Shown: in pieces, positions 5,451-43,950 of the stretch | Layout of the letters: each line of letters begins with the position of its first letter | Position numbering within the stretch: the first letter of the stretch is position 1 | NCBI GenBank assembly: GCA_030374765.1 | Contig: JARGXX010000025.1 | Coordinates: forward strand, 496,001-560,000 | Direction: 5' to 3' | Source: Agarophyton chilense | Taxonomy: Eukaryota; Rhodophyta; Florideophyceae; Gracilariales; Gracilariaceae | DNA: 64,000 bases | Made by a program: the position numbers and the translations under genes | The notes under the pieces: model-generated | What the model was told of the DNA's origin: nothing | Seen by the model: only the letters and a program-made list of their open reading frames with translations | The model's database searches: none

Positions 5451-5459
5451 TTACATATC

Positions 5460-14221: not shown

Positions 14222-14289
14222 ACGCGGAATTGGTAAAATGAGTAAGTCGTAAGAAACCACCCTGACGAACGACGCACTTCATATCTTTC

Positions 14290-16105: not shown

Positions 16106-16247
16106 AATGCAACCGTTCCAGGCGAAGAGAGTACCGACTGGGCGAAACAGGCGAGTGTGTTCTCTCATTTCATCTACGAGGTGGAGCTGGCGACTAGCAC
16201 AGTCAGTGGTGAAGTTTTGGAGACGCGAGTGGCTTTGAATTCCCATC

Positions 16248-17040
16248 TGCAAGGCAGCCACTAAGATGGTAGACAAAATAATTCGTAAAATGGTATTCCA
16301 CTGATGACTGTAGTGGTTTGTAGCAGAGTGGATGTCCACAAAAAGCATCGCAGGAAGCGGGTGGAGCCTTGCGAGTAAGTGTCCTGGGAAGAAAGAATGT
16401 GTGAGGGAAATGGCCAAGGAATGCTGATAAAGGAAATGATACTTGTAAAAACGAGACGGTATTCTAAATCTTGCACTACGAATGAAACATGAGATCAGTT
16501 CGACCAGTCTTTGCAAATTAAAGAATAATAATAATAACAAAACACACAAAAAAACACCCGAAAACCATTGAAGAACAAGGGAAAATGGCGCAATAATGTA
16601 GGAGATCCTCGAAACAATAACTATGGCTCAGATGAGGTTGGAACTGATGCTATAGGTACTCCTTCGTCGAGAACAAGTTTAGGATTCTTAGCGATCACCA
16701 AGATGGTTGTAAGTTGGTTGTTGGTTGGCCTCTGCCTTCTTCACTCGGGGCCAAGCGCCGTTTATTGTGCCAGGATAAGAAAAAGATACTGTACTAAAAT
16801 GTCTACAATGTGGTGTGCTACGAAATAATTTCCCTAAAAAAAAAAATTTTGGCACACTGTGAAGGCGTACAGCAGTACAGTCTTATTAAATTAATCGAAA
16901 TTCCTAATTTTTCCATGAAGTATTCTTCTCATAACGTGTCATTATCGAGTACAGTTGTAAAACAACAAAAAATGGTTAAGCGATATTAATTAAGCGAATG
17001 CAAGGAATCCGGTCGTCGAAAGGGTGAATGTCTGACTACA
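16248..17040 (-). repeat. LTR of family A (older subfamily), minus strand
   Basis: About 793 bp on the minus strand, starting TGTAGTCAGA at 17040 and ending near TGCA at 16248. It aligns over its full length with the split LTR at 31728-32095 plus 42235-42654. Shared landmarks include a GTTATGAGAAGAA run, a GTACTGTAC region, CACCAAGATGG, a TTGGTTGTTGGTTGGCC run and CTCGCAAGGC. No purine tract precedes it on its own strand, so it is a 5' LTR or a rearranged copy, not a 3' LTR. The flanks show no matching 5-bp duplication. Confidence 0.7.
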
Positions 17041-20894: not shown

Positions 20895-21616
20895 TAATCC
20901 CTTCGTGGCGCCTGACTCAATTTATTTTGTCTCGAAGCTTCACTCACTTAATAGAATAATGATTTTGAACGCCATTACGTAGATAAAGCACTGCAACGCA
21001 GTTCTTTATCCTGTAAATGGTCATAGGTACGCTATCCGCGCATCTGAAATTGTGCTTCGCGAGGTTCAGCCTTTTTTGTCGGCAAATACGTCCGTCATCC
21101 TCATTGCCCAGATTATTCTAAAGTTTCTATTTCTAGAGCCATTCCCTCGATATAGCGCGAGGGGGGCATTGAGTCTATCAGGCATGCATGGAGGCTAAAA
21201 TATACTGATGGTCTCATCTTTATCGTGTGTTTAATGTGACTGCAGCACTTTGCGCGGTCAAAGAACAAATATAGCAACCCGCAGGCGTTGTCTCCCGATT
21301 ATTTTCCTCTTTGACAACAAGTGGTGGCAATATCGTTGCTGTGGCTCGAGGCTGATCAGAACATAGTAGTTCTGTGTTTGTGGAAGTCAAGAGCGAGAGT
21401 CGAGCGTTTAAAGCAGCACACGATTCGTTCTACCTTTCGGCCCGGATTGTATCGTTAGGGCTCATGAGCCCAAAAGTTGTCGGACCCATTATTGGAAGAA
21501 AGCATCACGCTTGTACAAACCTGAAATAGGTAAGTGAATCTATACTTATTCTGAGTATTTACAATTGCTAACTCACTCTCGATGTACACTTTCAATGATG
21601 TCTATTGCCATTGCAT
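20895..21616. other. No gene seen
   Basis: This spacer lies between the Pogo-like transposon and the dispersed repeat at 21617. Only short frames without recognisable domains are present. Confidence 0.5.
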
Positions 21617-21872
21617 GTGCTACGTCTACTTAAGAGGCAAATGACGAATCGACGCGACGTCGCCGGCGTCGCAAAAGTGACCAGCCAGAGATCTAGGCTC
21701 AGCCATTAATCCCCACTACCATTGCACCAGGAGGCCGATTCTCCCTCTGCAAATGGCTGTGTAGTATTTTAGAATTTCGACCAATAAAAAATGTAGGCTC
21801 AAACATCGTTGCTGTTCTGGCCAATGATTCCAGTCCAAGTCCTCTCTTTGTCAGTCATTATCGCCAAGTTAA
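21617..21872 (+). repeat. Dispersed repeat R, copy 1
   Basis: About 255 bp aligned along its whole length with the reverse complement of about 43700-43950, at roughly 85-90% identity by eye. Shared landmarks in order are CGACGTCGCCGGCGTCGC, GCACCAGGAGGCCGATTCTCC, AGTATTTTAGAATTT and CCAATGATTCCAGTCCAAG. On the minus strand it contains a TGGTGCAATGGT stretch reminiscent of a tRNA A box, but no convincing B box. The family is unknown; a short non-autonomous element or SINE is possible. Confidence 0.75.
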
Positions 21873-24850
21873 AAAATTGGCGCGCTTTCCAACCGTAACA
21901 CCTTGTGCTTTTGTTATCTGCGTCACCACTGCTGCCATATCCGTGACGCCGATCACCCCAACTTCCGATTTGTATGTCGATGCCGATGCAAACCGCACCG
22001 CGACCGGCCCCAAAACGTCCCACCAAAATGCTGCGAGCTGCTCGTTGCTGTGGATACCGCCGAGCATACATGTTCTTCTCATTGCTTCGTGGCATCCAGA
22101 GGTTTTGGCGATTATTTCTAGATAAAGGATGGCGGGTCATCACTCTGGTTGTCGACAACAACCTTAGCCACATTTCTGAAGTGCACTCCTTTTTCATCAC
22201 CGACAATTTCTCCGTTTCGCTCAGTATCACGACCATCTTAAATTCCACCCAAGTGGACATGTCGTCGTCCGCTCCACCTCAAGAAAAGGCCCAAACCTCC
22301 TGCCCTCATAAGTACTCGACCTCCCACCGCTCTTCCTACAAAAGTAGGAAATGCTCACATAACTCCCTTTGCTTCCCCTGCCCCCGACTGCCCAGAAGCG
22401 CGTGCAGTTTGTTCCACTTTACGTTCTCGCCGTGATGTTATTATCACTGGCCCGGGTCTCAAAGGGGGAATTGTAACTGCACTTGCTGGGCGGGAACGTG
22501 CTGAAAATGCATTTATCATAGTACCCACGCGGGATGCCGAGTTGCTTGCCACGGCGGAAGCAGAGTTGCGAGGCAGATTTAAAGTGATTGTAGCAGAGGG
22601 CTTTAGAAGTTGAAAAAAAGCCGCGGATTTACCTTTGTATTCTCGTCTTCATGATTTTCAGTCCCAGTGCTTACTAACTCCTCTTTGGGACTGACTCACT
22701 TCTTTAAAACCGATACGTCTACGCCAGATGCCACATTTTTAGCCACGCCCGAATGAGTCGAAGCCTTTTCAACTGCAGTGGATTTCGGGCGAAATGCCAG
22801 GCTTAGTCTCCCTAAAACACGGCGGAGACATTGATTACTGACGGGGGTGCATCATTCCTGGAACACGATACTTCGATTTTGAATCTACTTTGCCCGCTCG
22901 AGTTGCAGGTCGAAAGGAACGATGGGAATCATGAAGTGCTACCGGCTTTGAAGGGATCGCGGGAATATTGGGATTAGCTACGGGATTGGTGTGGGTTTTA
23001 AAAGTTGGCATGGGCGGAAAGGCTTCCCCTGAAATTTTTGCAGAGCTAGGTATGGAAGCGAGCTATTATTTTCTTGGAAGTTTGGCTATCGACGCGATAG
23101 AGTCGTTTTGATTCACATGAACTCTACCAATAGGAGGATCGCTCTTTGGGGTCGCATTGCTATTCAACCACATAGATCGCGGAAAATAACTTGCCTTTTG
23201 AGGTGGTGTTCAATGGACAGCAAAGTCAAATCGTGGCCTGTTCTGCTTGGATGCTCCATGAACAATTGCTTTGGGTGGTTGGGCAGCTTGGAAAAGAACA
23301 TTCACTTATAGTTGTTATTGACGTGTATATTTATTCCTTTATTCGTAGGACGGAGAATATTACAGGGGAGGACCCTAATCCGAGTTCACCGACCATCACC
23401 CTTTTCAATAATATCAAAGGCCATCTTCTTCGCTGCTTTGATTGCTTTTCTGGTAAGTTGTGATTGAGAATCATCAGCGGAACCTTGTGATGATTTCAGC
23501 CCGTCTCTGTTTGCGTCCATCTCCACGCGTTCTTTCTCCTTGTTGCTAAGTTTGCTCTTCTTTGCCTTTAATCTTTCGGTAAAGCCTTTTTTTTGTTTTG
23601 GTGATCCTCACTCTGGACGGATTCGGAGGCAGTAGAGTTAGTGTACTGTAAATAGTTCCTTTCTTTGTTTTGTGAAATCTCTCGTTATTCTTATCTCCAG
23701 TGCCGACAACTGTTGGAAAGTCATCAAGCATTTGTGGCATCACCATAATTCCTTTACTTAGTCTTCTTTTCGCTTCCTTCAGAAGTTCGCCAAACTCTTC
23801 CACAGCGACAGGGCCCATCCCTTCTACAAGCCGATGTACTTGATTAGACCGAGAGTTGTTATCGGACCATTTCACACGCCTTCTCACTTCTTACTCTGTA
23901 GATTTATGGATAAATAGATTAACGCCTATGTCTGTATGAAGTTAATTACTGGTAAACGATTCCATTTTTTTTGCAACGAATACATATCAATAACACCGCA
24001 CATGTTCATAACATTGCAGATGTCATTAAAAGAATAGAACTCACGGTTGAACCTCTAATATGGGTCGAAGAACGATTCGAATTCAATGTGTTCGTCTAAG
24101 ATCTCTTCCAATATATGCTCAGTGAGGACGTAGTCATTATATGAAAACGCACACTTCATAATGTGCCGACAGGGAAATTCAGTGATCCCGTGTTCTTCCA
24201 ATCGCATCGTATGAATATATCTTTTTCTCCTTCATCTTCGCTCTCCACCTTTTGACGTGCAAATAGAACTCGTAGTGGTTCAGTTGAAGGGAGAAGTGTA
24301 TTTGATTTAAAAGAATCATGCTTTCGGATGAAATAAAAGCTCCAAGTTAAATCAAAACACGCAACGAAGCCGGTTCTTTTACTTCTTACAAAAGCAGCTC
24401 AGACCAGTGCATGTTTTCCATGTTCGTGGCAAACGCGCGACGAACAGCAAAGTTTCTCGATGGTTCTATACTTTTTTGCTATAAACTTCTTCAGTGAATA
24501 GCTGGTGTATTCTGCAATAAGTTCATCGAGGATCTCGGGGGGGACAGGCAACATATAATTCCGTAAAGCACGATATCTAGAACTGAGAGGGGACATGGAG
24601 CGTATACGTGATTATTTGCGCTCCTCAGCACGTCTGTGAGTCATCACTTGCAGTTGTCTTGGAATGTCCGAAAAAGAGACTTTCTTAGATAGCACATAGG
24701 CGCGATATCCAGGATTGAAAGCTTTGTTATATATGGTCCTTTTGAAGCGGTATCGCCTTGGAACTGCGATGATTCGAAAACATTTAACAACCAATTGTGG
24801 TCTGCGTACATAAGTATAAGTAAAACACATAGGTAATTTGTTTGTGAAGG
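21873..24850. other. Region without a supported gene
   Basis: Many short frames. The minus-strand frame at 21799-22260 and the plus-strand frames around 21974-22435 cover the same bases and cannot both be real. A Lys/Arg-rich minus-strand frame at 23546-23887 has no recognised domain. One short stretch at 22436-22615 looks protein-coding and is listed separately. I found no 5' LTR or gag for the retroelement that begins at about 24860. Confidence 0.4.
22436..22615 (+). pseudogene. Short coding-like remnant, unidentified
   Basis: One plus-strand frame reads about 60 codons of balanced, ordinary composition with alternating hydrophobic and charged residues (a DVIITGPGLKGG stretch followed by an RDAELLATAEAELRG stretch) and ends in TGA at about 22613-22615. 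The codons upstream in the same frame are Pro-rich. I do not recognise the family. It may be a fragment of a host gene or of a mobile element. Confidence 0.25.
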
Positions 24851-27800
24851 GCTTTAAGTGCCTTTCCTGGAAGTCATGGCGCCGTTATATGAAAATGGGC
24901 AGTGACTTAGACCTACGAATATTGAAGAAATCTCTGGACGTGTCCTCACACTAAATACTTCGTCCGATTTGGGCCCGAACTTTATCAGGTTGTCTGAATT
25001 GCGCGAAGACGAACGAGATCGAATACAACAGGCATATATACCGGATATCCGGGATGCGAACAAGAGACCGATAAAGTCTATTGGAACAATAAGGCTTGTC
25101 ATTCGCTTGGGAAATCATGTTGTCGTGGTAACGTTTATTGTATTTATCACATTGGCTGCATCGGTTGTGACTACTGTGACAAGTTTTTCGAGTCGATTCG
25201 TCCGAAGAATCGGGAAGTAGAGCTGGAAGATGGCTCTACAGTGCCAATCGTGCGCAGACCTCGGCGGCGTTCCGCTTCATTTGCCCCATTACCACCGCCA
25301 TTAGAATACGAATCCCGACTGGGCAGAACATCTCCGAATATTCGGGTGTGTAAACTAACGGTTATATCACCAAAAAGTCAACCATGGGTATCAGTCGTTA
25401 CTAAGAAGCACGAACTTATCGTTATTCAGCCGAACGCGGCACTGTTTCACACTAGTGAATTGCTAGTCGCTAACGGCATTGCACAGGTGAGCCCGAAGAT
25501 TCTTTTCAGGATATTGGTGAGCAATGATGGCTCGGAAGAGCGTCGCTTGCACAAGCATCAGCTCTTGGGCATGGCGCTGCCACACCCTTCAGTTGTGATA
25601 CCGCCACACATAATGACGGCAGACGTCTTAGAAATAACGCCCACAGACGAGCAGAAGTCGACAGCGACAGAAGCGGTCGAAAACATGAAGAACATGAAAG
25701 AAAAGAGTGTCTTTGAAGAAGAGATGGAAGAAGCCCTCGAGGGCGTGAAAATGGAACACGTTCCTGAGGAGTATAAATGAGGATTGCGCAGATTTCTGCT
25801 GAAGTTTTCAAATATGTGGAGTGGATACATTGGCCAGATCGCGGCTACAGAACATCATATTGACGTTTTACCGGGTACACGACCCCTCGCTCATTTACCG
25901 TATCGGGCAGGCCCGCGAACTCGTCAGATCGAACAAGAACACGTGGAATACATGTCGGAGAAGGGAATCATTGGGCCAGCTCCATCAGCTTTGGCGTCCG
26001 CAGTGGTCTTTATTCTCAAAAGAGATAGTTCCTTACGCTTTTGCGTTGACTACAGAAAACTGAATGCAGTAACTGTGAGGAATACGTACCCATTACCGCG
26101 TATGGATGAATGCATCGATAGTTTTGGAGATTCCAATGATTTTACTACGCTTGACGCAAATGAGGGATACTGGCAGATACCAGTCGCCCTAGAGGACCAA
26201 GATAAAACTTCATTTGCGTGTCACGCAGGCCTGTATCGCTTTGCGCGAATGCCATTTGGTTTGACCAATGCCCCTGCGACTTTTCACCGTGCTATCGATA
26301 TAATATTTTCTCAGTATAAGTGGAAAACATGTCTTGTTTACTTGGATGACATCATCATTTTCAGTAAGAACATGGAGGACCATTTCCGGAATGTTGAGGG
26401 AATCCTCGAGAAGTTACAACAAGCTGAAAGTACCTTGAAGATCAAGAAGTGTGAATGGTTCATGGACCAAGTGAAATAACTGGGACACAGGATAAAGCCA
26501 GGGAAACTGGAGATGTAAGAAGTGCAGACCGCTGCGATTGGTGAGATCAAACCTCCGCGAACGCAGACGCAATTGAGATCTTTTCTCGGACTTTGTAACG
26601 TCTATAGACGATTTGTGCCGCGCACTCGCATATTGCTGCACCCCTTAATATTTTATTGAAGAAGGGACAACCCGTTCACTTGAAGGAATTCGGAGAAGCC
26701 GAAACGGAAGCTATCGCAAAGCTAAAACACGTGCTGACTACAGCTCCTGCGATATCTCTCACGAAAACCGATCTTCCTTACTCCGTCGATACGGACGCTA
26801 TCGATAATCAGATAGGGTGTGCCCTTTTTCAAACGCACGAAGACGACATATGACATCCTATTGGATACTGTTCGAGAACACTGCACCAGGCAGAAAAGAA
26901 CTACTCTGTGTCAGAAAAGGAATGCTTTGCTATTGTTTGGACCCTCACGACCCTCAGACCTTACCTAAAGGGTGCTCACTTTACGGTCAATACCGATCAT
27001 TCATGCCTCAGATGGCTCATGTCGATTACCGACCCGTCGGGACGCTTAATGCGATGGCGTCTGCTCCTTTCAGACTTTGATTTCACAATCAACTACAAGA
27101 AGGGAACTTCAAACGTACAAGCCGAAGCGTTACTGCGACACGAAGTCTTGAGAGAGACCCAATTGGAAATCGATGATGAGATACCATGTTTGGTAACGGA
27201 AAATTCGAGAAAGAAAGAAGAAGAACTAGAACATCTAGAAGAAGAGGATTATCAAATGGAGTTACTGGTAGCCCAGACAACGGAAACTGATCCAGAAGAT
27301 CAACTCGAACGAATCTCTCTTGAAGAGCTATTACGTGAACAAGTCATAGATGCCTTCTGCGCGGCTATCCACTCTCATCTTAACGGGGGGAGTGGTGTTA
27401 CCTTTTCGTCTCGATGATCGAGCAATCTTTGTTCGAACTGCTGAATTGAATAACTAAATCGTGATATCACGCGCCCTAAAGAGCAGAGTACTGCATTTGG
27501 CACATTATTAGCAAATGTTTGGTCATCCAGGAGGTACGAAGCTGTATCTGGCCCTCAAAAGGGACTTTTATTGGCCAACTTTGGTAATGGATTGTCATGA
27601 AACAGCTAAGATATGCTTGACGTGCGCGAGGAGTAGAGTGAAGCTCTGGAAAAAGAAGAAGCCACTGAAGCTGTTCCCAGCATTCGCACCTCTACAGTAT
27701 GTCAGTATTGACATATTTGGGGAATTGATCCGCTCGAAGCGGGGAAACCGATACCTTTTGGTAATAGCTGACCGCTTCTATAAGCTGGTTACGACTGTTC

Positions 27801-29652
27801 CGCTGAAACGGATTACTGCTACCGTGATAGCACGAGCGTTTACCCACCATCGGGTTTATTACTACGGACCACCGGATACTCTGCTCTCAGATAATTGAAA
27901 GCAATTCGTTGCACGCTTCTTTCAAGATGTATGAAAGATACTTGGAGTTAAGAACGTGGTCACCACGACGTATCATTCGCAATGTAACGGGCAGGTGGGA
28001 CGGTGCAATCGTCCACTACTCGCCGCAATTCAGCACTTCATCGGAGAAAACCCCAAGGACTGGGATCTGTAAACAGACACGCTTAGCTACGCGTACAATA
28101 CGCAAGTGTATTCGACGACGAAGCTAACACCCTTTGAATTGGTACTATCTCACGGACCAGCGGCTTTTCCAATCAAGGTAGACTCGGACAGAACCTTAGA
28201 AGAATCAATGGCAACGACGGCTCAGTTTCACCTACGCTGGAGGAATGAGTTGGGCAAACGCACTACACAGGCTGCAAAAGAGATGGGAAAGGCCCAAGCG
28301 CGTTACAAACGTAATTACGACGCGTCAATGTGACGTGCACTCCCGGATATCCGAGTCAGAGGACATGTTTTCGTGAGAGTGGAAAGGAAAGATAGCCGGA
28401 AGACTGGAGAGGAACAGGAACGGAAACGCCGTCATAAGTTAGAACCGATCGCTACAGGACCACATGAAGTTGTAGAATTCGACGAATATACCGTGGTAAT
28501 ACGGAGAGGTACAGAGGTGGAGCGCATTTATCGAGAACGAGTAGTTGGTGCGCCAGATCGAGAAGCTGACGTACAGCGAGAGGAGCCAACACGTGAAGAT
28601 ATTGAGGTGCAGGAGCCACCACAGCCACCAGTGGTACAGGAGTTTGCCGACGTACCGCCGCAGGCCAAAATAATTCCAAAACTGCCACGTGGTGGAAAGA
28701 GTTCGGAAACCCAATTTGCAGCGCTGAACAACAGTTCTGCGACAAACGGTGCATCCGCCCATGACATAATCATAGCTCTTACTGCAGCAGTGAGAGGAGA
28801 CACGGAGATCCGCACTGTGAGCGCGCAGCAAAATGCAGTCTCTCCCTCAGACCACGCGGTGCAGGCGAAAGAAATTGAGGATGAAACCTTACATATCAGA
28901 AGTCTTGAAGGCTCCACAGGGAGTCCTGATGACATAACAGAATCGCCATTTGGGGTAAAACCAGAAGTAACCGAAGCTCAGATCAGCAAGCCAATTCCGC
29001 AAGACGGATTGAAGAGCATAAATCTCCCTGAGAAGCGCAGAAGGTCTCAAGAAAAGGAGAAGTCCAGAAGGGACACCGCAGTTGTGGAGACGTCACATGG
29101 AGACAGTATGACTGTATCGGCTGACCCACTTGCGGCGGATACCGAGCATTTGAGGAGACCCCAGAACATCCGGACACCTTAAATCCGGAAGAGAAGAAGC
29201 CCAACGGGCAAGCCTAAGGCATACAGTGGAAAGTAAAGTCGAGTTTTCGCCGCAAGGTTCGGAAAAACCGAGAAGGAAGTTGTAAGCACCGGCCAGGACG
29301 GAAAGATATAGGGAAACCAGACGACTGGCTTTGAAAACCCCGAAGGTGGATGAGACGACAGAACGTGATGACACGATTCCGAACGCTATCGCGAACGCTA
29401 CGGAACCTGTTGACGGGAGTGTGACCCCGACTGAGGATTCCGCAACTGAGGAGATGGAATAAATCATCGAATGCATTATAGATCATGGTTGGCATGCAAA
29501 GGACAACAGTTTACTGTTTAAAGTGCGTGGGTATGGGTATCAACCCAAAGAAGATACATGAGATCCCGTACGCAATCTATAACGATCACACATGCTCGAG
29601 TACTGTCGACTTACTAAACTGGATGTCCCAGACAGTATTGATGACGCTCTGG

Positions 29653-31548
29653 TCAGTTTGGTTGCGTCAGGAGAGCCTGATCGAAGCTGACCCCTACAGA
29701 AGTATAAAGAAACTTCAGGAGAAGGAAAAATGAAGTGGAGGTCGTGAAGCAAGAAGAGAAGAGGCCTCGCAGAAAGAAGAAGAAGCAACGAACTTGCAGA
29801 AGATCAAAGCGTCTTATTTTGGTTATCTCAAGACTACCGCTAGTCGGTTGTGACAGTGCCCTCAGGCAAGAAGGTTTGGGATTCGGGTGATCCGAGTGGA
29901 TATCAATCGAGGAGCGCAAGAGATTCAGCATCTGCTGTCCATTTCCTTGAACAAGGTGGTGCGGAATCCCAGCGTCTTCGAGGAACTGCCTCAGATTACC
30001 AAGCTCGGCATCGTGGGAAGCCACTGAGGGTTGAACAGGCTCAGGTACAGCGCTCTGCATCGCTGCAGGGACCACCGGCTCTATGCGATCGTTCTCACCC
30101 AAAGCGGGATCCTCGAGGATGACCTTTTCTGGCTCTTCATCGTAATCGATTTCTTGCATCTCGCCAACGAGTGCGTTGTAATTCTGAGCAGTTGGCTCGT
30201 GTATGTAACCAGTCGGCTGGGTCGGAGGCATTTCTCGCGGAGTTTCCTGCAGAAATTTGGAGTGATCGCCGTCGATATGCTGGTTATTCCGGCGGTCGTA
30301 CCATACAAAGTCACCGCCGGGACCGGTTCTTCCGGGTGAAGAGTCGCGACAAGGACGTCCTCTAGCCCGCTTTTCAGAAGGAACAAGGGTCGAGTCAATC
30401 TGGTCAATGACATTCATCAGGCGCAGAAATTCTTCGTGATTGGCACGTGAGCCCAGGACGAGCGACAGATCGAGTTCTCTCGCAAATTGTCGAGCACTCT
30501 CGCAAATTGTCGAGCAATCCGGCTCATATACCACAAACGATATGTGTCGTATACATCCCAAAGGATGAACACGGCCATCTTCGCGATGAATTCACTGTTG
30601 ACGACTACACAATAACCAGAAAACGGATCATTCGCGAGTAAGGAACCTACTTAGGTGAATGAAGGAGGAAGCTCCACAGGACGGCCGCAAGGATTCTCGA
30701 TCTCATGCCAGAATTGAGGAATCTGAACGTAGCGCCCGACGCGCGAGCTATACCGAACTCGCACCACTTCGAGCATCTGGTGTGGAACCAAGTATCCCAG
30801 TCAAGATCTGGTACGGCGTTCCCATTGGGGGATTTCCCAATATGGATTATCGCGTTTGCGGAGATAGCGGAATTTCGCGCGTAATTGAGGACTGTCAGAA
30901 CAGAGGGCTCCGTTGGATACTCCAGGAACACCGCGCCACCTTTGGACATCAAAATCCCTTAGGTTCTCGACATACGAGTAGGCCCCGCCATTTGTTCTGG
31001 CGCACCAGGTATCGAATTGCCAATCCTTATTGAGAGACACCCAGCCGATAAAGTGGCGTAATCGCTGGTACACCAGACGGGAGAATCGTTCGCGCGCCTC
31101 GAGCAAGCTCTCGTTTCCGAAGCGGCTAGTCGCATTCTTTTGGACTGCGCAATGGCTCAACCAATCTGTTGTAAACAACGCATACCATGGGATACCATCG
31201 GGAAGGCGACGGACGACCACATACTGATTCATCAGAGTTTCGTCGCCGACCGCCGCAGGAAAAAAACCAAGGTGATCGCGCGTATAACGCAGAGTGCTGT
31301 AGGGGTTCTAGGCCGACGAAGTCCCCGTAATGTGGGAACCTCTGTACAGAGGAGAACGCAGGTTGCAGAACAGCTGCTGTGGAGGAAAGGTATGCAGGAC
31401 TAGGAATGGAAGCCGGCTGCGGCAAAAAGACAGTTCGGGAGAGTGGAGCGAAACCCCTAGGCGGCGCAGAAGTCTGCTGAAACGGAGGGTTGTCGAGATC
31501 GTCATAGGACGTCGGTGGGTTGACCACGTAAGACGGAAGGTTGCTCAT
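29653..31548 (-). pseudogene. Antisense-strand gene remnant of the old family-A element
   Basis: Overlapping minus-strand frames at 31126-31548, 30801-31232, 30647-30952 and 29653-30561 follow successive parts of the antisense protein encoded at 39377-41233. There is a Pro-rich head, a YARSPWF segment, an LVYQRL segment, a W/Y-rich middle, and a tail with a D-S-S-P-G-R motif followed by PTGYIHEP and an acidic stretch ending in EDPAL. The order and orientation relative to pol and the 3' LTR are the same as in the young element. It is a broken fossil with several breaks. The similarity is moderate, so the two copies separated long ago. Confidence 0.75.
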
Positions 31549-31727: not shown

Positions 31728-32095
31728 TGTAGCATTCTGGATGCACCTGAGTTCGACCGATCGAAATACTACAAAGTCGCGATACGGCATTCATAAGCTA
31801 TTGCTTGGGCTATACTCGATTACGAGAAGTTATGAGAAGAATTACTTCATGGAAAGATTGGGACAGGAGAAATTTCATTACGAAGTGCTGTATTTAGTGT
31901 ATACTGTAAGGTGCCATCACGAAATTTTTTATTTGGTAGTATTTAGATAGTTATTTAGTGGAACGCCACGTGTATGCATTACTGTACAGTACTTGCTTTT
32001 CCTCTTGGCACATTAAAAGACGCAAGGCCCAGGTAAGGACGGCGGAAGGCCAACCAACAACCAACCAACCTAAACACCATCTTGGTGAGTCCTAC
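31728..32095 (+). repeat. 3' LTR of the old family-A element, first part
   Basis: It begins TGTAGCATTC directly after a G-rich tract and matches the minus-strand LTR at 16248-17040. It is interrupted at the duplicated pentamer CCTAC (32091-32095) by the younger element and resumes at 42235. Confidence 0.8.
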
Positions 32096-32981
32096 TGTAG
32101 AGCAACGCCCAGTTAGGGGATACTTGAAGATGCAACTCATAGAATGAGGATTGAACCCTCCGAGGGTTATGACTATGATCCCCTCTAAGGTGTGCTGAGG
32201 TGGCACTGTTTTCTGGTTAGAGTTCGCCTATGAAGGGAAGATTCGGATGGCCCATGGTTGGATTGGCCCCGTGATACAGGTGGCTTAATTTCGGCACCGA
32301 TTTTCGGATATTTGTGAGAACGTTGGACTTTTGGGCCCTGACAGTGGGATCTCCACGTGTATGGCCCTGAGCAGGTGTGCACTACTGTAGAGTTTAGTTA
32401 GTGGGCCCTACTTAGGGAGACGAGATCTGACAGTCCGAAGCTCAGAGTAAATGGGAACCAAGGTTGGTCTTCGATACCTTTAGAGGTTCTTCGTCGCCAT
32501 CGTTTCGGCCTTACAACCCGGAACGGGCTCTGGTTAGCAACGCCTGCGTAGGGACACGACTCCACTTGGAGAGTGCCTACGTTTGGGTTCCGGGCAACCA
32601 CCCCCTTGGGACCGCTCAGACGACCTGGGTGCACGATACCCCGTGGGGGTTCTGCTTACTTGTTGCGTGCTTTTTGTGTTTCCTTTCGAGGACAGGTTTT
32701 CGCCCCTTTTCTGGTTCTCGGGTCCGGTGCATGTTAGTGCCCGACCCTCGCCCCGTTTTTCCTCTTCGCCGGATTTTCCCCCATTCTTTAGGATACCCAT
32801 ACCCATTCCCGATCCAACGGTTTCTACCCCTCACCTCCGTCGGTACTGGCGGAATCCCCCGTGGGAGTTACACCCCATACTACGGGTGGAACGGAGGGCT
32901 CTGTCTTTGAGTCTGCCTCCCCCAGGGAGCAAGGCTTCGAACACCTTGAGAGCACTTCCCGTCGCCGGGTTTTGCTCCACA
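32096..32981 (+). repeat. 5' LTR of the young family-A element
   Basis: 886 bp, starting TGTAGAGCAACG and ending TGCTCCACA. It is preceded by the target duplication CCTAC and followed two bases later by a TGG-initiated primer-binding region. It is near-identical to 41315-42229. The U3/R/U5 division could not be placed. Confidence 0.92.
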
Positions 32982-33208
32982 AGTGGTCTCCCGACTTAGA
33001 ATCCGTTCTCGGACTTTTGGGTTGGTCATCCACGTGTTGGAATATCTCTTGGAAGAGGAAGCACCGTCGTGAAGATTTGTTGTAGTGGTCCCCTTTGGAA
33101 AGGGTGGAATTGGTTTTTATTTTTGTTTTGTGTTACGTCATCCATTCTCCGGCAATCTCCTGATCGAATTTCATCGTTACCCCGAATCGTCGGTGTCGTG
33201 TCTGCAGC

Positions 33209-35239
33209 ATGTCGCCGCCTACCCGTGGTTCCAGGACTGGATCGAACCGTCAAGCGGATTCAGTGCCCCCGGCCCCGCCTAGGTCGAGGAGCTCAATTCC
33301 CGAAGATCGGAACGATTCCGGTATCGATCCGGACACTCGGAGAGCACCCTCAGTGGTTTCAGGTCCTCGAGAGGTCGTGGCTGTGGGCCCAGCTCCAGTC
33401 GTGGAGACCCCCTCAGCAGCACCCCGAAGTCGGGCCGACCCTGAATTACAGCGCCTGGACACTCGAATCGATATCGCCAACGCGGCTCACGTCGAGCTCC
33501 TTCAGGAGGTTACTACCCTCCGCCTCAAGGTGGAGGACGCCCCGGTGCGGGGAGTCGCCGATGACCTTCGTACCCTGTGGAGGGATGTGAACTCCCTTTT
33601 GGAAAGATTTGGTACCCCTGGGGTCTTTATTCAGGAGTACCGGAGCCTCGTGGAGGAACACCGCGTGCAAGCGGAACGCTTCCGAGCTCGGCTGGACACC
33701 CTCGAGGCCATTATCCGTATGGACGGAGACACAGAAGCCTCGAAGGATAAACTCGACGTTTCGGAAGACGAAGAACACCGCTCCGCTAAACGGGACCGCC
33801 GCAAGTCCAAGAAGAGGGTTCACCTCCAAGAGGATTTATCGAATTCCGATCCCAATCGCTCGTCATCGAGTTCGTCCTCCGAATCTTCGGATAGTGAAGA
33901 TAGACGCCGGTCATCCCGGGCGACTCGGTCGAAGGCTACTTACACCTCTCAAGGGGCAATCCGTACCCGGAAGAATGGTAGGAAACACCTTGGATTAAGG
34001 GAGCTGAAGCCGACGAATCCTCTCTATCGGAAGCTGCTATCGTACCGCTATTACCGGTTGGATAACCCTTCGGGAGATCAAACATCCCGCGGAACGGGTA
34101 GGGTCAAGGACTACATCAAAAGGCTGAGCATCACCCTACAGAAGAGGGAGTTCACAGGAACAGACCCAATTCTGGTGCTCGATTTCCTTGCGAGGTTCGT
34201 CCAGGAGGCTGACATCCTCGGTATGAGTGAAGCGCAAGCGTATCTTGCATTACCCTATTTCTTAAAGGGGATGGCTGAAGACCAGTTCAACTCCGTCCGT
34301 GGATCATCCCGAGCCTCGGAAAGGGGAGTCACGTGCTGGCCCGAAGCGGTGCAGTACCTCTTGAGGTCATACGCTACTGGAAATGCGATTCACGAAGCAA
34401 TCCTTGCATTAAGGGATACGCGGCAGAAGCCGATGGAAACCGAAACGGTGTATTCAACTTGCTTGAATAAAGCGTTTCACCGATGCGGGAATGTATTCCC
34501 CGCCTACGAGAGATGCACCATGTTTGTGGATGGTTTGGACCCCTCGATAAGGGCATTGGTTGCCCGACATCGGGAAGAGAAGCGCAAGCTGACCTACTTG
34601 GAACTGGTTCAGTACGCCCAGGCTGAGGGGGATACTCTCCGTGCCCGGCAGAACCGAAAGAGTCGGCCGACACATGCACTCCTCGCCTATGGAGGTAACT
34701 CGTCTTTGTCACTCGCAGGAGGCCCTGCCCCTGTGGGGGTCAATGATAACATTCACTTCATGGGAAGTAATCCCGAATCTATGGGTACGTCTGAGTTGCC
34801 GTCGACATCCGCTCCGACTACGGATGAAGACCCTGCGCTCTATACCCAAGAACGGAGGGTGCCAGCCGCATCGCTACCTTTTGCGAATACCGCTGCTCGG
34901 TTCTCTCGCCCCGGATGGAGGGATACAGCACCACGTCGCGTGGATTCACGTCCACAACCGAACCCGGCAGAGCTGATTTGCTATTTGTGTTACCTCCGTG
35001 GTCACAAAGCACCAGACTGCACATTTCCCCTGCGGGAGGGTTCACGAATTATCGCTCAGTACGAGGCTCTGACCCCTGAGGAGAAAGCTCGAGTCCCGAG
35101 TAGGTGCTATGAGGAACAAAGGATACTCCGAGCTCACCTTGCTGACAGGGATACAGAACCTGTACCCGCGAACGGGGAACAACCGGTCCCCTTCGAGGCA
35201 GCTGCACCGAATTCGGTGGGGTCCGCTTCGAAAAACTAA
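33209..35239 (+). CDS. gag: Gag of the young family-A element
   Basis: Retroelement structural protein of 676 aa, forming the particle in which reverse transcription takes place. Residues 1-100 are Pro/Arg/Ser-rich and look disordered. About residues 175-245 hold a basic and Ser/Asp-rich stretch. The conserved capsid-like region lies at about 280-470 (it includes YLALPYFLKGMAEDQF and GLDPSIRALVARHREE) and is shared with the fossil at 7.5-8.0 kb. A single CCHC zinc knuckle of the form C-x2-C-x4-H-x4-C lies near residue 592. The pol region is in a different frame, which Ty3/gypsy elements commonly bridge by programmed frameshifting. The start is the first in-frame ATG about 230 bases after the 5' LTR. 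Confidence 0.88.
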   Translation: MSPPTRGSRTGSNRQADSVPPAPPRSRSSIPEDRNDSGIDPDTRRAPSVVSGPREVVAVGPAPVVETPSAAPRSRADPELQRLDTRIDIANAAHVELLQEVTTLRLKVEDAPVRGVADDLRTLWRDVNSLLERFGTPGVFIQEYRSLVEEHRVQAERFRARLDTLEAIIRMDGDTEASKDKLDVSEDEEHRSAKRDRRKSKKRVHLQEDLSNSDPNRSSSSSSSESSDSEDRRRSSRATRSKATYTSQGAIRTRKNGRKHLGLRELKPTNPLYRKLLSYRYYRLDNPSGDQTSRGTGRVKDYIKRLSITLQKREFTGTDPILVLDFLARFVQEADILGMSEAQAYLALPYFLKGMAEDQFNSVRGSSRASERGVTCWPEAVQYLLRSYATGNAIHEAILALRDTRQKPMETETVYSTCLNKAFHRCGNVFPAYERCTMFVDGLDPSIRALVARHREEKRKLTYLELVQYAQAEGDTLRARQNRKSRPTHALLAYGGNSSLSLAGGPAPVGVNDNIHFMGSNPESMGTSELPSTSAPTTDEDPALYTQERRVPAASLPFANTAARFSRPGWRDTAPRRVDSRPQPNPAELICYLCYLRGHKAPDCTFPLREGSRIIAQYEALTPEEKARVPSRCYEEQRILRAHLADRDTEPVPANGEQPVPFEAAAPNSVGSASKN

Positions 35240-35241
35240 AC

Positions 35242-38200
35242 TTGGGAGTCTCCCCTGCGGGAGGGGCGTCTTCTAAGCCGGAGTTGAAGACGCCCGAGGC
35301 GCTCCAGCTTCGCTCCCCAGCTGTGACTATCCTTTCAAGGAGAACGGCTGACACCGACGTTAACTCGGGATACTTTAGTGTCCTTCGTTGCCCGTGGATA
35401 CGGTCCCGTAATCTCCGTATTCCGGATCGAGTTATGGTAATGGCCAAGCGGAATTATAAAGTATTCGCCGACTTCGGCCTGTCCAACCAGTTTATGGTTC
35501 GTCAAATATCTGTCCTGGATACAGGAGCCGCTCCTAACTTAATTCATGTGGAATTGTTACCTCCGCTGCTCCGGGTCCAAGTTCGTACAGGTCCACGTTT
35601 GGATATCGCCGATGCGAACAACAACCCACTACGGACACTTGGTACAATTTCCCTCATGGTGAGGTTAGGCTCCTATCTCGTTCAGCTAGAGTTTATTGTA
35701 TGCAAGTCACTTGCAGCACCAGTCATACTGGGTTGTGACTTTTTCGACCGCTTCGTGGAAGCCATCCGTCCTCGGAATAGGACTGTGGAACTCGAAGACG
35801 GGTCTACGATCCCAATCGTTCGTAAACCCTTACAGGGAACAGCGCGAACACGCGTCCCTCTCCCTGTCGCACAGGAATCTGTGAAGAAGGACCCGGTGTC
35901 TACACGGGTAAAGGTTGCGAAGTCAGTGGCTATCCCGCCAGAAACCCAGGTTTAGGTCACAGTTGTTACCAAGCAAATTGGTGTGTATGTGGTACAACCG
36001 AACCCGTCTCTGTATACGCGGCGTCAACTCGCCCTCGCGAATGGGGTTGCCTCCGTGGAACCGGATAAACCTTTCAAGGTTTTGGTAGCCAACTTTGGAA
36101 AGACAACGCAGCATTTGGTCAAACACCAGATCCTGGGTTCTGTTCTTCCACACCCGCATGCGGTCGTACCTACAAAGATCTCTATCGCAGAGGTCCTTGG
36201 TGTGGCAGACCCTAAGGAGGGGGAGGACACTGCCGAAATCGCGGAAGACGGTGAGCATACGACTGCAGCTCCACACGCTGAACACTTTAAACCTCAGAAG
36301 GTTACGGCCCCTATCACAGGAGCAGACCAGACGGATCCTATTCAGGAATTGGAGAAATGGGATCTCAACCATGTACCCCCATCTCATCGGGAGAAGCTGA
36401 GGCACATGCTTCGTGAATTTACCCCCATGTGGGATGGTTCCCTTGGAACTATTGGGATTACAGAACACCGCATCGACTTGTTACCGAACACTCGGCCTAT
36501 TGCCCAACACCCTTACAGGGCTGGACCGAAAGCTCGGGAAGAGGAGAAATCTCAGGTGAAGAAGATGCTTAAAGCGGGCGTAATTGAACCTGCCCAGTCC
36601 TCTTGGGCCTCACAAGTGGTGTTAGTTCCGAAACCGGATGGATCGTGGCGTTTCTGCATCGATTACAGACGCCTGAACGAGGTAACCATGAAGGATGTGT
36701 ACCCGATCCCTCGGATGGACGAATACATCGACTCCCTTGGGAGCGCTACTGTTTTCTCTACCCTCGACGCCAATTCGGGCTACTGGCAAGTCCCTATTAG
36801 GGAGGAAGATCGAGACAAAACGGCTTTCGTGTGTCATCAAGGACTTTTCCGATTCCGGAGGATGCGTTTTGGGTTGACAAATGCCCCCGCAACGTTTCAA
36901 CGGGCGATAGACATTCTGTTGGCTCCCTTCAAGTGGAAGACGTGTCTAGTGTATTTAGACGACATTATTGTCTTCTCCAACAACCTGGATGACCACCTCG
37001 AACACGTCGGGGACGTAATGAAGATACTCCGCGACACGGGAATCACCTTGAAACTCAAGAAGTGCGAGTTTTTCACCGATTCGGTTAAGTATCTGGGTCA
37101 TATCATCCGTCCCGGACAGCTTTCAATCGATGAAGTACGAGTGGAATCCTTGAAGGAAGCAAAACACCCGAAAACTCAAACGGAGTTGCGATCCTTCTTA
37201 GGTCTGTGTAACGTGTATCGCCGATTCGTCCCGAACTTTGCGGATATTGCCACCCCCCTCAACAGGCTCCTGACGAAGGGACAACCAGTTGAACAGGAAC
37301 CTTTAGGCGACGCGGAAGCGTCTGCCTTCACGGCACTGGTGAATGCCGTAACATCACCGCCAATCTTGGCTCTACCCAATCCTGGGCTCCCTTACGAAGT
37401 GGACACCGATGCTAGTGCAAACCAAGTAGGGTGTGCACTGTTCCAATCCTCTGGGGATGGTGAACGTCACCCTATTGGGTACTGGTCACGTTCCCTGAAT
37501 GTCCATGAAATGAACTACTCGGTCTCCGAGAAAGAATGTTTAGCCGTTGTGTGGGCCTTACCTACACTTCGCCCCTATCTGATGGGTACTCGTTTCAAAG
37601 TCCATACGGACCACGCATGCTTGCGTTGGCTCCTGGAGATCTCCGAACCCTCCGGCCGCCTTATGCGCTGGTGTCTCCGACTGTCGGAATTCGACTTTGA
37701 GATCCTGTACAAGAAAGGGAAGCTGAACACTCAGGCTGATGCACTATCCCGCTTGGGAAGAACAGCGGAAACGGAACCCTACGAGGACGATGACATCCCA
37801 TGCTTTATGGTATCGGACCTCGAGGGAGGAGCTCAACCGCTGACGGATGATGTTTGTGACGATATACTCGTCAACGAGAGTCTGGATTCGCCGACCGGCT
37901 CTTTTTTACCTATCTCTCCAGAGGAGATGATACGCGAGCAACAGCTCGACCCATTCTGTACACGGATTCGGGCTCGTCTCAACGGAGGATTTCAGTTACC
38001 TTTCGAGGACGACGATCAGGGTTACCTAATCAGGACCGTTGGACCTCGCCCGAGGATAGTGGTGCCGCACACCCTACAACAGAGGGTATTAAACCTCACT
38101 CACTATGTGAAGGTTGGCGCCCACCCCGGGGGAAGAAAACTGTACCTCACGTTGAGAAGGGACTTTTACTGGCCGGCAATGGCATTCGATTATTACGCCG

Positions 38201-38973
38201 TCAGACGGGCCTGCGCCAATTGCGCCAAGAATGACGTCAAACTTCGGAAGCGCTCTAAGAAGTTGACGCTGTTCCCGGCACGGGCTCCACTCGAATTCGT
38301 GGCCATAGACATCCTAGGGAAGTTTATCAGGACGCCCCGAGGTCATCGGTATCTGCTTGTCATTTCTGACAGATTCTCTAAGCTAACGAGAACTGTGCCG
38401 CTGAAGCGGATCACCGCCGCTACCGTCGCGCAAGCGTTCGTGACCCATTGGGTGTTCGTATATGGACCGCCGGTGCAGTTGTTATCCGACAACGGAGGGC
38501 AATTCGCATCAAAGTTCTTTCAGGATGTATGTCGAATCCTTGATGTAAGGAATTTATTTGTTACTACGTATCACCCTCAGGGGAATGGCCAGGTGGAGAG
38601 GTTTAACCGCACGATACTCAACGCTTTGAGATCGTATGTTGCGGATCACCCCAAAAATTGGGACTTGTACACAGACGCTATCACGTATGCATACAACACC
38701 CAGGTACATCGGGTTACATCGTTATCCCCATTTGAACTGGTACTGTCGAGAACACCGCCGCCGGTCGCCATCGAGGCTCAACGGACGCTGTCGACCTACC
38801 CGTCACCGGGATTGTACGGAGAAGCCTGGTACCAAGTTCGATGGTACGGATTCTCGCCTGAGGAGGATACAGTGGAACCCATTGAGCACCTTCCGAGGTC
38901 TAAGGTTTTATCCTATCACCGAGGCGCTCGGGTAACCTTGCCTCCAAGTCTGGGTCGTGCCCAAGTCGGGTAA
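35242..38973 (+). CDS. pol: Pol region: protease, RT, RNase H, integrase, chromodomain-like end
   Basis: Polyprotein region of the young element. In order: an aspartic protease with a VLDTGAAPNLI active site (near 35515) and a VILGCDFF motif; reverse transcriptase with WRFCIDYRRLN, LDANSGYWQV, FGLTNAPATFQRA and the catalytic YLDDII (near 36955); and RNase H with an EVDTDASANQVG start and a TDHACLRWLL segment. Integrase follows, with an HHCC-type finger whose two cysteines appear as CANC near 38215 and a core containing SDNGGQF and a TYHPQGNGQVERFNR stretch. The last about 45 residues (YQVRWYGFSPEEDTVEP) resemble a chromodomain, which in chromoviruses directs insertion to particular chromatin. 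It copies element RNA to DNA and inserts it. Confidence 0.9.
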
Positions 38974-39129
38974 GCCACCACGGGAACTGTTGTGGATGCG
39001 ATCTCGAAGTGAGGAAGATGTTGGACCTCTGAAGAGGAATTGAGGAGAGTATCCCGAAGAACACGTATTGAGAGGGAATGTTTACTGGCCCTCAGCCTAG
39101 CGCCGTTAACCGGGGAACACAGCACCGGT

Positions 39130-39315
39130 TATCGGGACAGTTTATGATGAAAAAAGGAAAAGAAGACCCACGAAGTGGAGAAGAAGATTAAGAAGAAGAT
39201 TGGACCCTAGGAAGGGAAGAAGTTGAAGACGAAGATGAAGAAGATCCTAAGAAGAAAGAAGAAAAGAAGTAGAAGTTAAGATCCTAGGAAGGAAGAAGAA
39301 AAGAAGTTATGAAAA
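39130..39315. other. Purine-rich spacer between pol and the antisense gene
   Basis: A run of almost only A and G on the plus strand, built from loose repeats of a 'gatcctaggaagg-aagaag' type unit. It separates the 3' end of pol from the 3' end of the minus-strand gene, so convergent transcripts would meet here. On the antisense transcript it would be a pyrimidine-rich 3' region. It might serve as an extra priming tract or as a terminator; the sequence alone does not decide. Confidence 0.6.
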
Positions 39316-39376
39316 TAATATCAGAAGTTTACTATTGTCGCCAAGCTATGGACTCCAGAATTGCCCGAAGGCGGAA

Positions 39377-41233
39377 CTACGGAAAGCCCGAGGAGAGACC
39401 CGCCCCACCGTTGGGATTCTGACCCTGATGGTACGCCGAGGCGAAAGCCAACATCTGGCTCACATCCGTCATACCCGGGGGAATCGGAATGCCCGCGTTT
39501 ACGAGGCCTTGTCGCACACTATCCGCTTGCGGAGTGGCAACCGGCGCCTGCGCAAGGGTGTTCACACCCCACCCGGGGGGAGCAGATGGACCGCCACCGG
39601 ATGCATTCGCCGCCGCAGCTGAGGTCGTTCCCACTGGTTGGAAGGGTGCAGATGGCTCCACAGGGAGTACTCCACTAGGAGCTGGCATGTCGTTATCCAA
39701 CGCTGGATCGTCCAGGTCTACTGGAGGCTCGTACTCGTAATCGTCGGTATAAATGAACCCCGTCGGGTGTCCCACCGGCATCGGTCGAGGCGAGTCAATC
39801 AGCGCCCGTGCTTGCGCCGCGCTGATGCGAACCCCTTCGAAGGGATTGTAATAGACCCAGTTACCGGAGCCCGGATCGTACCGGCCAGGAGACTTGTCTC
39901 GCGCGGATCCTTCCCCTGCGGGCTGATTTTCCACTGGAACTCGATCCCATTGGGTGTTGTCGATCACGTCCAAGATTGGATACAGGTCCTGCACGCTGCT
40001 GGCCGAACCCAACGCTGGGACAAGGTCGATCTGACGCATGATGGTCCGTAGCATCGGAGGAATATACCAGATACGGAAATGGTCATGAGCATCCCAGAGG
40101 AGGTGCGCCGCTACGGGGGCTGCCCACTCGGCTGCAACGAGGGCCCAGTATCCCGAGTTCGGGTCGTGCATCAAACGAGACCCGATATAGTAGATGCACG
40201 GAGGCAGTTCAGCAAAGCACCCTCGGGGAACCTCGACCTTACTCCACCAAGCTGGAAGGGGCACGAATCGCCCAACCTTCGCCGTGTTACGGATACGCTC
40301 CAGTTCCACGTGAGGATACGGGACAAGGAACCCGAAACGGGAGCGCGAGCGGCGCTCGAAGCGCACGCGTCGATCGAACCCATACTGGGTAAACTGCCAT
40401 TGAAGGTACCTGAATTCAGCCCGAAGGATGGGACGACTCCATTGGAGCATATCTTCTCGGAGAGGAAAACCCGGTCCGCGGAACTCGGCTTCGGGAAAGG
40501 CTGCCAGATTATCCCCGTAGGAGACCTCACCGTACGTGCGGTAATAGGCGACATCGAACCCGTACTCCGGGGGAACCAGATGGTCAAAGCGTGACCTCTC
40601 CAAGCGCTGGTAGGCCAGAGCCGCCATCGCTGCGCGCGCCTTGTCCAGGGACTCCCCGCGACCGCGGTATAGATACTGAGGCTCTATGGCTACCCGCGCC
40701 CTCCAATCGGGAGAACGTACGACCTCGACAGGTAGACCACCCGGCAATAAGCCGTCCTCCACGTAGGAGTCGATGAGCTCATCGTCGCGAACCGCTGTCG
40801 GATGGAACCACGGAGCGCGGGAATATATCACCGGATCGGTAAGGAGACTCCACCTTCGAAAGGATTCGTTTGAGATCCAACCTCTGGAGTTTGCTACCAA
40901 GGGCATCGCATGAGCAGAGTTCCACGCCACCGCGCTAATGTCCAAATCCTCCTGAGGATGTCGGTTGCTCGCCGAGGCGGAAGGTTCGGTACCTGACGGA
41001 GCCGCATCCAAACCGGAGAAATATCCACCCTGCTGGGGAGCTTCGTTGTCCGCCGGCGCGGAGGCCGATGGCCCCGAGAGTGGGTTGCGGACGTATGGGT
41101 TCATTCCCTTGAGAGGGCTGGTTGAGACTGCTGTTGCGAGAAGTTTCTTATCGCCGAAAGTCGGAGGAGTAGAAGAAAGTTGTACCGACGTGCCGGTTTT
41201 GTGGCGATCCTCAGAAGTGGTGAAGGACCCCAT
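39377..41233 (-). CDS. Antisense-strand ORF of the young family-A element, function unknown
   Basis: A 618-codon open frame on the strand opposite gag-pol, lying between pol and the 3' LTR. I do not recognise the family. Visible features: a Ser/Pro-rich head (residues 1-90), a basic, aromatic-rich middle of about 300 residues (with LAYQRLERSRFDHL, RRSRSRFGFLVPYPHVELER and ELPPCIYYIG stretches), and an acidic then Pro/Gly/Ala-rich tail. No signal peptide, membrane segment, zinc finger or known enzyme motif is evident. The first in-frame ATG is at 41233. A TATATATA at 41252-41245 lies only 12 bases before it, so if that is the promoter the next ATG (41104, 575 aa) would be used. Diverged copies at 29.65-31.55 kb and 15.0-16.1 kb support a real gene. 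Additional antisense ORFs at this position are known in some plant Ty3/gypsy lineages. Confidence 0.75.
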   Translation of the reverse strand: MGSFTTSEDRHKTGTSVQLSSTPPTFGDKKLLATAVSTSPLKGMNPYVRNPLSGPSASAPADNEAPQQGGYFSGLDAAPSGTEPSASASNRHPQEDLDISAVAWNSAHAMPLVANSRGWISNESFRRWSLLTDPVIYSRAPWFHPTAVRDDELIDSYVEDGLLPGGLPVEVVRSPDWRARVAIEPQYLYRGRGESLDKARAAMAALAYQRLERSRFDHLVPPEYGFDVAYYRTYGEVSYGDNLAAFPEAEFRGPGFPLREDMLQWSRPILRAEFRYLQWQFTQYGFDRRVRFERRSRSRFGFLVPYPHVELERIRNTAKVGRFVPLPAWWSKVEVPRGCFAELPPCIYYIGSRLMHDPNSGYWALVAAEWAAPVAAHLLWDAHDHFRIWYIPPMLRTIMRQIDLVPALGSASSVQDLYPILDVIDNTQWDRVPVENQPAGEGSARDKSPGRYDPGSGNWVYYNPFEGVRISAAQARALIDSPRPMPVGHPTGFIYTDDYEYEPPVDLDDPALDNDMPAPSGVLPVEPSAPFQPVGTTSAAAANASGGGPSAPPGWGVNTLAQAPVATPQADSVRQGLVNAGIPIPPGMTDVSQMLAFASAYHQGQNPNGGAGLSSGFP

Positions 41234-41244
41234 TGGGAGAGCAG

Positions 41245-41252
41245 TATATATA
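41245..41252 (-). promoter_or_regulatory. TATA-like box for the antisense gene
   Basis: TATATATA lies on the minus strand, 52 bases upstream (sense direction) of the polypurine tract at 41302-41314 and about 140 bases before the ATG at 41104 of the antisense gene. It is a plausible core promoter for antisense transcription out of the 3' end of the element. This is a motif match only. Confidence 0.35.
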
Positions 41253-41314
41253 GTGACCGGAACGCGAGACACCCGCGGCTCGGAATGTTCTTCCTCGTCT
41301 TAAGGAGGGGGAGA

Positions 41315-42229
41315 TGTAGAGCAACGCCCAGTTAGAGGATACTTGAAGATGCAACTCATAGAATGAGGATTGAACCCTCCGAGGGTTATGACTATGATCC
41401 CCTCTAAGGTGTGCTGAGGTGGCACTATTTTCTGGTTATATTTCGCCTATAAGGGAAAATTCGGATGGCCCATGGTTGGATTGGCCCCATGATACACGTG
41501 GCTTAATTTTGGCACCGATTTTCGGATATTTGTTAGAACGTTGGACTTTTGGGCCCTGACAGTGGGATCTCCACGTGTATGGCCCTGAGCAAGTGTGCAC
41601 TACTGTAGAGTTTAGTTAGCGGGCCCTACTTAGGGAGACGAGATCTGACAGTCCGAAGCTCAGAGTAAATGGGAACCAAGGTTGGTCTTCGATACCTTTA
41701 GAGGTTCTTCGTCGCCATCGTTTCGGCCTTACAACCCGGAACGGGCTCTGGTTAACAACGCCTGCGTAGGGACACGACTCCACTTGGAGAGTGCCCACGT
41801 TTGGGTTCCGTGCAACCACCCCCTTGGGACCGCTCAGACGACCTGCGTGCACGATACCCCGTGGGGGTTCTGCTTACTTGTTGCGTGCTTTTTTTGTTTC
41901 CTTTCGAGGACAGGTTTTCGCCTCTGTATTGGGTTTCTTTTGTTGTTTCGCCCCTTTTCTGGTTCTCGGGTCCGGTGCCTGTTAGTGCCCGACCCTCGCC
42001 CCGTTTTCCCTCTTCGCCGGATTTTCCCCCATTCTTTGGGATACCCATACCCATTCCCGATCCAAAGGTTTCTACCCCTCACCTATGTCGGTACTGCCGG
42101 AATCCCCCGTGGGAGTTACACCCCACACTACGGGTGGAACGGAGGGCTCTGTCTCTGAGTCTGCCTCCCCCAGGAAGCAAGGCTTCGAACACCTTGAGAG
42201 CACTTCCCGTCGCCGGGTTTTGCTCCACA
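41315..42229 (+). repeat. 3' LTR of the young family-A element
   Basis: 915 bp, TGTAGAGCAACG to TGCTCCACA, preceded by the polypurine tract AAGGAGGGGGAGA (41302-41314) and followed by the target duplication CCTAC (42230-42234). It is about 30 bp longer than the 5' LTR because of one extra segment near 41930-41960. Confidence 0.92.
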
Positions 42230-42234
42230 CCTAC

Positions 42235-43699: not shown

Positions 43700-43950
43700 T
43701 TGAACTTGATGATAATGACTGACAAAGGGAGGACTTGGACTGGAATCATTGGGCAGAGGAGCAGCGATATTTGAGCCTACATTTTTTAATGGTCAAAATT
43801 CTAAAATACTATATAGCCATTGGCAGACGGAGAATCGGCCTCCTGGTGCAATGGTGGTGGGGACCAATGTCTGAGCCTAGACCTCTGGCTGGTCACTTTT
43901 GCGACGCCGGCGACGTCGTGTCGATTCGGCACTTGCCTACTTGAGATATG
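43700..43950 (-). repeat. Dispersed repeat R, copy 2
   Basis: Reverse-complement counterpart of 21617-21872, with the same ordered landmarks. In this copy the reading direction shows CTATATAG near 43813, which in copy 1 is altered. Similarity ends near 43697, where the minisatellite begins. Confidence 0.75.

Follow-up and report, generated by a model that had tools for sequence, protein, structure and literature searches.

Chromodomain-bearing Ty3/gypsy elements of the red alga Agarophyton chilense carry a protein-coding gene on the strand opposite gag-pol. The gene lies between the end of pol and the chromodomain on one side and the polypurine tract on the other, occurs in at least two families with intact frames as well as in older relatives, and has been under purifying selection. 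We describe it from a 64,000-nucleotide stretch of contig JARGXX010000025.1 (positions 496,001 to 560,000; hereafter, the window), which holds the older relatives, and from its copies across the genome. Telling an antisense gene of an LTR element apart from a chance frame is difficult. In this genome, young copies are numerous and diverged families exist, so that selection can be tested for, and the outcome was positive. We regard it as very probable that the frame is a selected antisense gene.

Organization of the carrier elements

The young element is a damaged plus-strand Ty3/gypsy copy at 32096-42229, delimited by its LTR pair (blastn) and the flanking letters. Its 5' LTR (32096-32981) and 3' LTR (41315-42229), the latter a putative site of the antisense promoter, differ at 27 of 886 sites and are bordered by a 5-bp target-site duplication, CCTAC, at 32091-32095 and 42230-42234; together with a polypurine tract, these features identify it as a Ty3/gypsy carrier. 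A putative gag of 676 aa (33209-35239), named by position only, has no Pfam match. It is followed by a protease (35242-35955; weak gag-asp_proteas match, E 0.0058, below the cut-off) and by pol (35983-38973), in which Pfam identifies reverse transcriptase, RNase H, and integrase. Apart from the protease match being below the cut-off, this is the Ty3/gypsy domain order. A stop at 35953-35955 splits protease from pol, while in several sister copies both form one long open frame of up to 1542 codons without stops.

In comparison with its sisters, the young element is missing about 1.58 kb of its pol around 38818-38830, comprising the part beyond the integrase core and a spacer; about 12 nt are common to both ends of the deletion. 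The chromovirus feature of a chromodomain after the integrase was found in sister L013 as a separate 120-codon frame (L013:2724-3083; PF00385, E 2.2e-8, above the cut-off), which begins about 430 nt past the stop of the long pol frame. In the window, the deletion fuses a chromodomain piece with a weak Pfam match (38827-38973) to the integrase. The region between pol and the 3' LTR contains repeats of a 52-nt unit in some copies.

The preliminary description of the window had reported a 618-codon antisense frame opposite gag-pol, between pol and the 3' LTR, and we located it on the minus strand at 39377-41233, inside the young element. We annotate it as a gene on the basis of the open reading frame, its genome copies, their alignment, and selection tests. 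At 618 codons it is far above shuffled expectation, as the longest frame in any of the six frames of 300 base shuffles of 39000-41313 had a median of 149 and a maximum of 295 codons. The start codon is uncertain: the frame runs from an ATG, alternatively as 631 aa from a GTG at 41272, and the homologue P0001 starts at the equivalent of residue 44, where M44 (41104) is a possible alternative start. Between the ATG and the LTR edge lies an 81-bp leader on the same strand (41234-41314), which contains the polypurine tract of the element.

A second family is represented by locus L049, which encodes a 645-codon relative of the antisense frame; 219 of 551 aligned residues are identical between the two proteins. 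Just upstream of its antisense ATG, on the opposite strand, L049 has a polypurine tract and an LTR edge, the latter 35 nt away. A 500-base probe set at the predicted position of pol, 3.3-3.8 kb beyond, proved to be RNase H/integrase, again in the orientation opposite to the antisense gene; compared with the window pol, 102 of its 141 codons encode the same residue. Judged by these sequence features, the layout of the L049 family is the same as that of the young element.

The window also contains an old element, in which antisense remnants had been noted at the same position and orientation. This holds for the full layout, with protease and pol remnants at 24972-28240 (plus), a decayed antisense gene at 29926-31548 (minus), and an LTR edge at about 31728. 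The old and young pol share 492 residue-identical codons among 947 aligned, and the minus-strand remnant at 29926-31265 matches the young antisense protein at 36% and 31% identity (E 1e-52).

A third, L049-like element in minus-strand orientation carries a decayed antisense gene on the plus strand at 14317-16261. The young protein detects this copy at 14798-15500 (plus; 32% and 39% identity) and the L049 protein at 14633-16261, with 50% and 53% identity over residues 94-383 and 37% and 32% further on. The gene start upstream of 14633 derives from a DNA match to L049: a 67-nt stretch (14254-14320) corresponds to L049 308-374. By this match, the LTR edge falls at 14281 and the position of the start codon, 35 nt from the edge as in L049, at 14317. 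The antisense copy near 15 kb stands as previously described; the LTR assigned to it, of the old subfamily, does not. The adjacent LTR, identified by an inverted match to 5387-6109 and by the L049 edge sequence, is at 13561-14281 (minus), and the LTR remnants resembling the old LTR (16695-16954 and 17408-17462), probably those intended earlier, lie on the far side of the antisense gene. As the interval from 16261 to 24972 yielded no pol remnant, this copy supports the LTR side of the layout only.

Elsewhere in the window, a plus-strand L049-like LTR at 5387-6109 is followed by gag, protease, and pol remnants at 7480-10235. These apparently belong to a fourth element, which is truncated and points in the opposite direction to that at 13561-16261.

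Genomic copies and selection on the antisense protein

We searched the genome (79.8 Mb in 135 contigs; 1876 first-look candidates) for copies of the antisense protein and scored at least 71, including the window copy, with 95-100% identity and all spanning residues 1-617 or more. The 40 best-scoring of the 71, ranked by antisense-protein match, were fetched with their flanks. Within this set, 25 antisense frames, that of the window included, contain no stop; an LTR is present in the expected orientation in all 40 copies and pol in 37. Conversely, among 46 loci retrieved through pol, at least 20, including the window's own locus, have an antisense match listed in the position and orientation predicted. 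With the L049 protein as query, at least 68 matches were scored at 91-100% identity (25 of 68 without stops), and with the homologue P0002 at least 68 places at 29-37%, among them open frames of 611, 652, and 681 codons. As far as can be read from the sequences, further families carrying an antisense relative exist in the genome. Three fetched loci (L027, L035, and L038) lack a matching pol stretch yet retain LTR and antisense gene, the frame being fully open in L027; these are possibly non-autonomous or truncated derivatives.

The preliminary description had argued for selection on the protein, as opposed to a chance frame, and its proposed comparison of synonymous and non-synonymous changes bore this out within and between families. 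Between the young and L049 frames (551 codons), the three codon positions differ at proportions of 0.47/0.40/0.66, with a pN of 0.44 and a pS, near saturation, of 0.72. The antisense frame is stop-free in both, while each of the other five frames contains 4-21 stops. Similar profiles were obtained for two pieces of the old and young genes (0.48/0.39/0.69 and 0.41/0.37/0.70). As a yardstick, 141 pol codons of the young element and L051 gave 0.20/0.12/0.60. The antisense proteins of the young element and L049 are 40% identical and their pol proteins 72%; since the antisense protein evolves faster than pol, its constraint is moderate. This between-family result is independent of the choice of the 40 copies, although the families themselves were found by protein similarity.

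Within the young family, we calculated omega over the 40 copies against an expectation by base and CpG. The 576 singletons gave an omega of 0.77 (p 0.001) and the 121 shared variants one of 0.59 (p 0.002); for the 64 shared variants that fall in the core, it was 0.46 (p 0.0007). These values are lowered, for singletons most, by a copy choice based on antisense match, which favours intact frames. The contrast between singletons and shared variants is weak (Fisher p 0.14 for the whole frame, 0.025 for the core). LTR controls ranged from 0.85 to 1.27 across 12 tests (lowest p 0.115), and omega of the pol sense frame was not significant in 33 copies (0.93 and 0.67; p 0.24 and 0.10). We further counted no indel event in the 1854 bp of the antisense frame, compared with 5 events for pol (1387 bp), 21 for the LTR (916 bp), and 25 for the spacer (377 bp), a deficit inflated by the same copy choice. 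The sense frame that shares its third codon positions with the antisense frame shows a similar within-family omega (0.80 and 0.60); however, over the 551 codons it is interrupted by 21 stops in the window and by 18 in L049, and it has poorer protein similarity. Thus, it is closed, in agreement with the earlier view that no sense gene forces the antisense frame open.

The antisense protein family

The protein had been said to match no recognised family, and profile searches agree. Even with E values of up to 1 admitted, none of the seven proteins matched a Pfam family, PF04195 and bZIP included; PHROGs (four proteins) and NCBIfam gave no match, and PDB no significant sequence match. Predicted structures, for which the antisense core was taken as 39674-40846, were poor and yielded no fold match. 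Protein-database searches, with about 8000 candidates scored in each, returned five relatives (P0001-P0005), the named ones being hypothetical proteins of Gracilariopsis chorda (44% identity) and Gracilaria domingensis (42%). Both genera belong to Gracilariales. An alignment of seven relatives, two of which are shorter, contains 28 invariant columns. Invariant W, Y, R, G, and P are among the conserved core residues, and P, A, and G are enriched in the tails. Hydropathy averaged over 19 residues peaks at 1.08 in the window protein and at 1.57 in that of L049, the peaks of the seven proteins ranging over 0.95-1.57; by this hydropathy scan no transmembrane segment was found, L049 being borderline.

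Expression, possible role, and known antisense genes

Taken as a whole, our observations are best explained by a selected antisense accessory gene that has its own transcript from the 3' LTR region and a regulatory product, an account to which we give somewhat better than even chances. The antisense start codon lies close to the LTR edge, at a distance of 35 nt in the L049 type, 81 nt in the young element, and about 180 nt in the old one, so that a transcript of its own would start within the 3' LTR or right beside it. Expression from such a transcript is, in our view, probable. No antisense promoter motif common to the elements was found: L049 has TATA-like strings 154 and 333 nt upstream of its antisense gene, whereas the young and old LTRs have none. 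A TATA-like string in the 81-bp leader of the young element falls in a variable stretch and is present in only 17 of 40 copies, and we therefore claim no promoter there. Past the antisense stop, AATAAA is found about 100 nt downstream in the L049 copy; in the window copy none occurs in the approximately 480 nt read.

The product would be a soluble, non-envelope accessory protein that could regulate the life cycle of the element, through transcription, nuclear steps, or escape from silencing. A regulatory accessory protein appears likeliest because of the location of the gene, the lack of a clear membrane segment, and the analogy to the antisense ORFs reviewed in PMC7264820 and PMC11963269. A regulatory role has been proposed for the antisense genes of plant Retand/Grande elements. 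By this analogy, a regulatory rather than structural role can be put forward tentatively, at a little less than even probability. That the antisense protein has been kept suggests that the elements use the gene to control or assist their own copying.

Several other readings deserve weighing. The protein might be a counter-defence factor, if antisense transcription across the 3' portion of the genomic RNA gives rise to double-stranded RNA and the silencing that this triggers is suppressed by the protein. The overlap with the genomic RNA on the opposite strand and the high copy number agree with such a function, and evolution faster than that of pol would suit an arms race; the protein, however, resembles no described family, and we consider this reading unlikely. 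We see rather little likelihood, too, in a particle factor, whether structural or serving assembly or nuclear import, that happens to lie on the other strand: while the long conserved core with its invariant residues and the P/A/G-rich tails would fit, antisense expression would be a poor route to large amounts, and there is no similarity to gag. That the gene was captured from the host, or belongs to a second mobile element nested in the first and carried along, is improbable given its constant position and orientation in young, L049-type, and old elements, even though the named red-algal relatives are annotated as hypothetical and known from proteins alone, and antisense divergence tracks that of pol only loosely. 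For pol, identity is 72% between young and L049 and 52% between young and old; the corresponding values of the antisense core by tblastn are 44% and 31-36%, or about 40% for both on gap-free aligned codons over different spans.

For membrane stretches, the usual hydropathy cut is 1.6. The L049 stretch comes near this value, and the interval from pol to the 3' LTR is also where env-like ORFs sit. An antisense protein of envelope type is nevertheless highly improbable, as the L049 stretch holds charged residues and the window protein reaches a lower mean. We give a probability close to negligible to a frame that is open by chance, or as a side effect of either a sense gene or an antisense RNA that functions without a protein. 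Such an origin would accommodate the equal within-family omega of the third-position-sharing sense frame, but the stops and poorer protein similarity of that frame speak against it, as does protein-level similarity extending to other species, and the six-frame comparison between families largely refutes it unless the alignments are wrong.

In deltaretroviruses, genes such as HBZ of HTLV-1 lie antisense to gag-pol, have a promoter in the 3' LTR, and are regulatory; a bZIP domain is the defining feature of HBZ. The gene described here is likewise antisense to gag-pol, and the HBZ promoter may serve as a model for its possible expression. Unlike HBZ, its protein has no bZIP or other Pfam domain. 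The HTLV antisense genes are mentioned in PMC7264820 and PMC11963269, which also substantiate the earlier statement that antisense ORFs with other domains occupy the place between pol and 3' LTR in plant Gypsy lineages. The Retand lineage has an antisense ORF with a TRP28 domain, PF04195 (PMC11963269, PMC7264820). Retand resembles the present elements in being a Gypsy element with an antisense ORF between pol and the 3' LTR and a long region there, often with tandem repeats; it differs in being a non-chromovirus of flowering plants, whereas the elements described here bear a chromodomain and reside in a red alga. A further difference is the lack of a PF04195 match in our seven proteins; a genome-wide PF04195 search gave no signal, but control genomes gave none either. 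Position and strand also correspond to those of maize Grande gene23, rice RIRE2, and bean PvRetro13 aORF-3R (PMC7264820), which differ in host group and whose sequence relation was compared through Pfam only. According to the same review, gene23 is transcribed from a promoter upstream of the gene and its product is nuclear (PMC7264820).

The preliminary description knew of no such gene in an alga, and the best matches listed among open-licence PMC texts likewise include no report of one; the excerpted text of an Ectocarpus transposable element paper (PMC12477816) mentions none. Hence, the arrangement is known already, while the protein family is unmatched and the host group is new. Whether a whole red-algal Ty3/gypsy clade obligatorily carries an antisense gene of an undescribed protein family, invented independently of the retroviral and plant-Retand arrangements, is in our estimate evenly poised. 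If this clade-wide reading is true, antisense accessory genes would be a recurrent solution for LTR elements and not a plant oddity. If they arose independently in red algae, plants, and deltaretroviruses, an opposite-strand gene driven from the 3' LTR would offer a general advantage. Because the family is unmatched and the elements are abundant, the long-unexplained role of antisense ORFs in retrotransposons becomes testable outside flowering plants.

Around these elements, the window contains an inverted pair of 239-nt sequences, 90% alike (21635-21873 and 43700-43938), which flanks the old and young elements, and a frame for a transposase-type DDE_1 endonuclease (19224-19805; E 1.6e-25). 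The host genes of the window, such as Det1 and an AA-kinase/GNAT protein, form long uninterrupted frames, which fits an intron-poor red alga.
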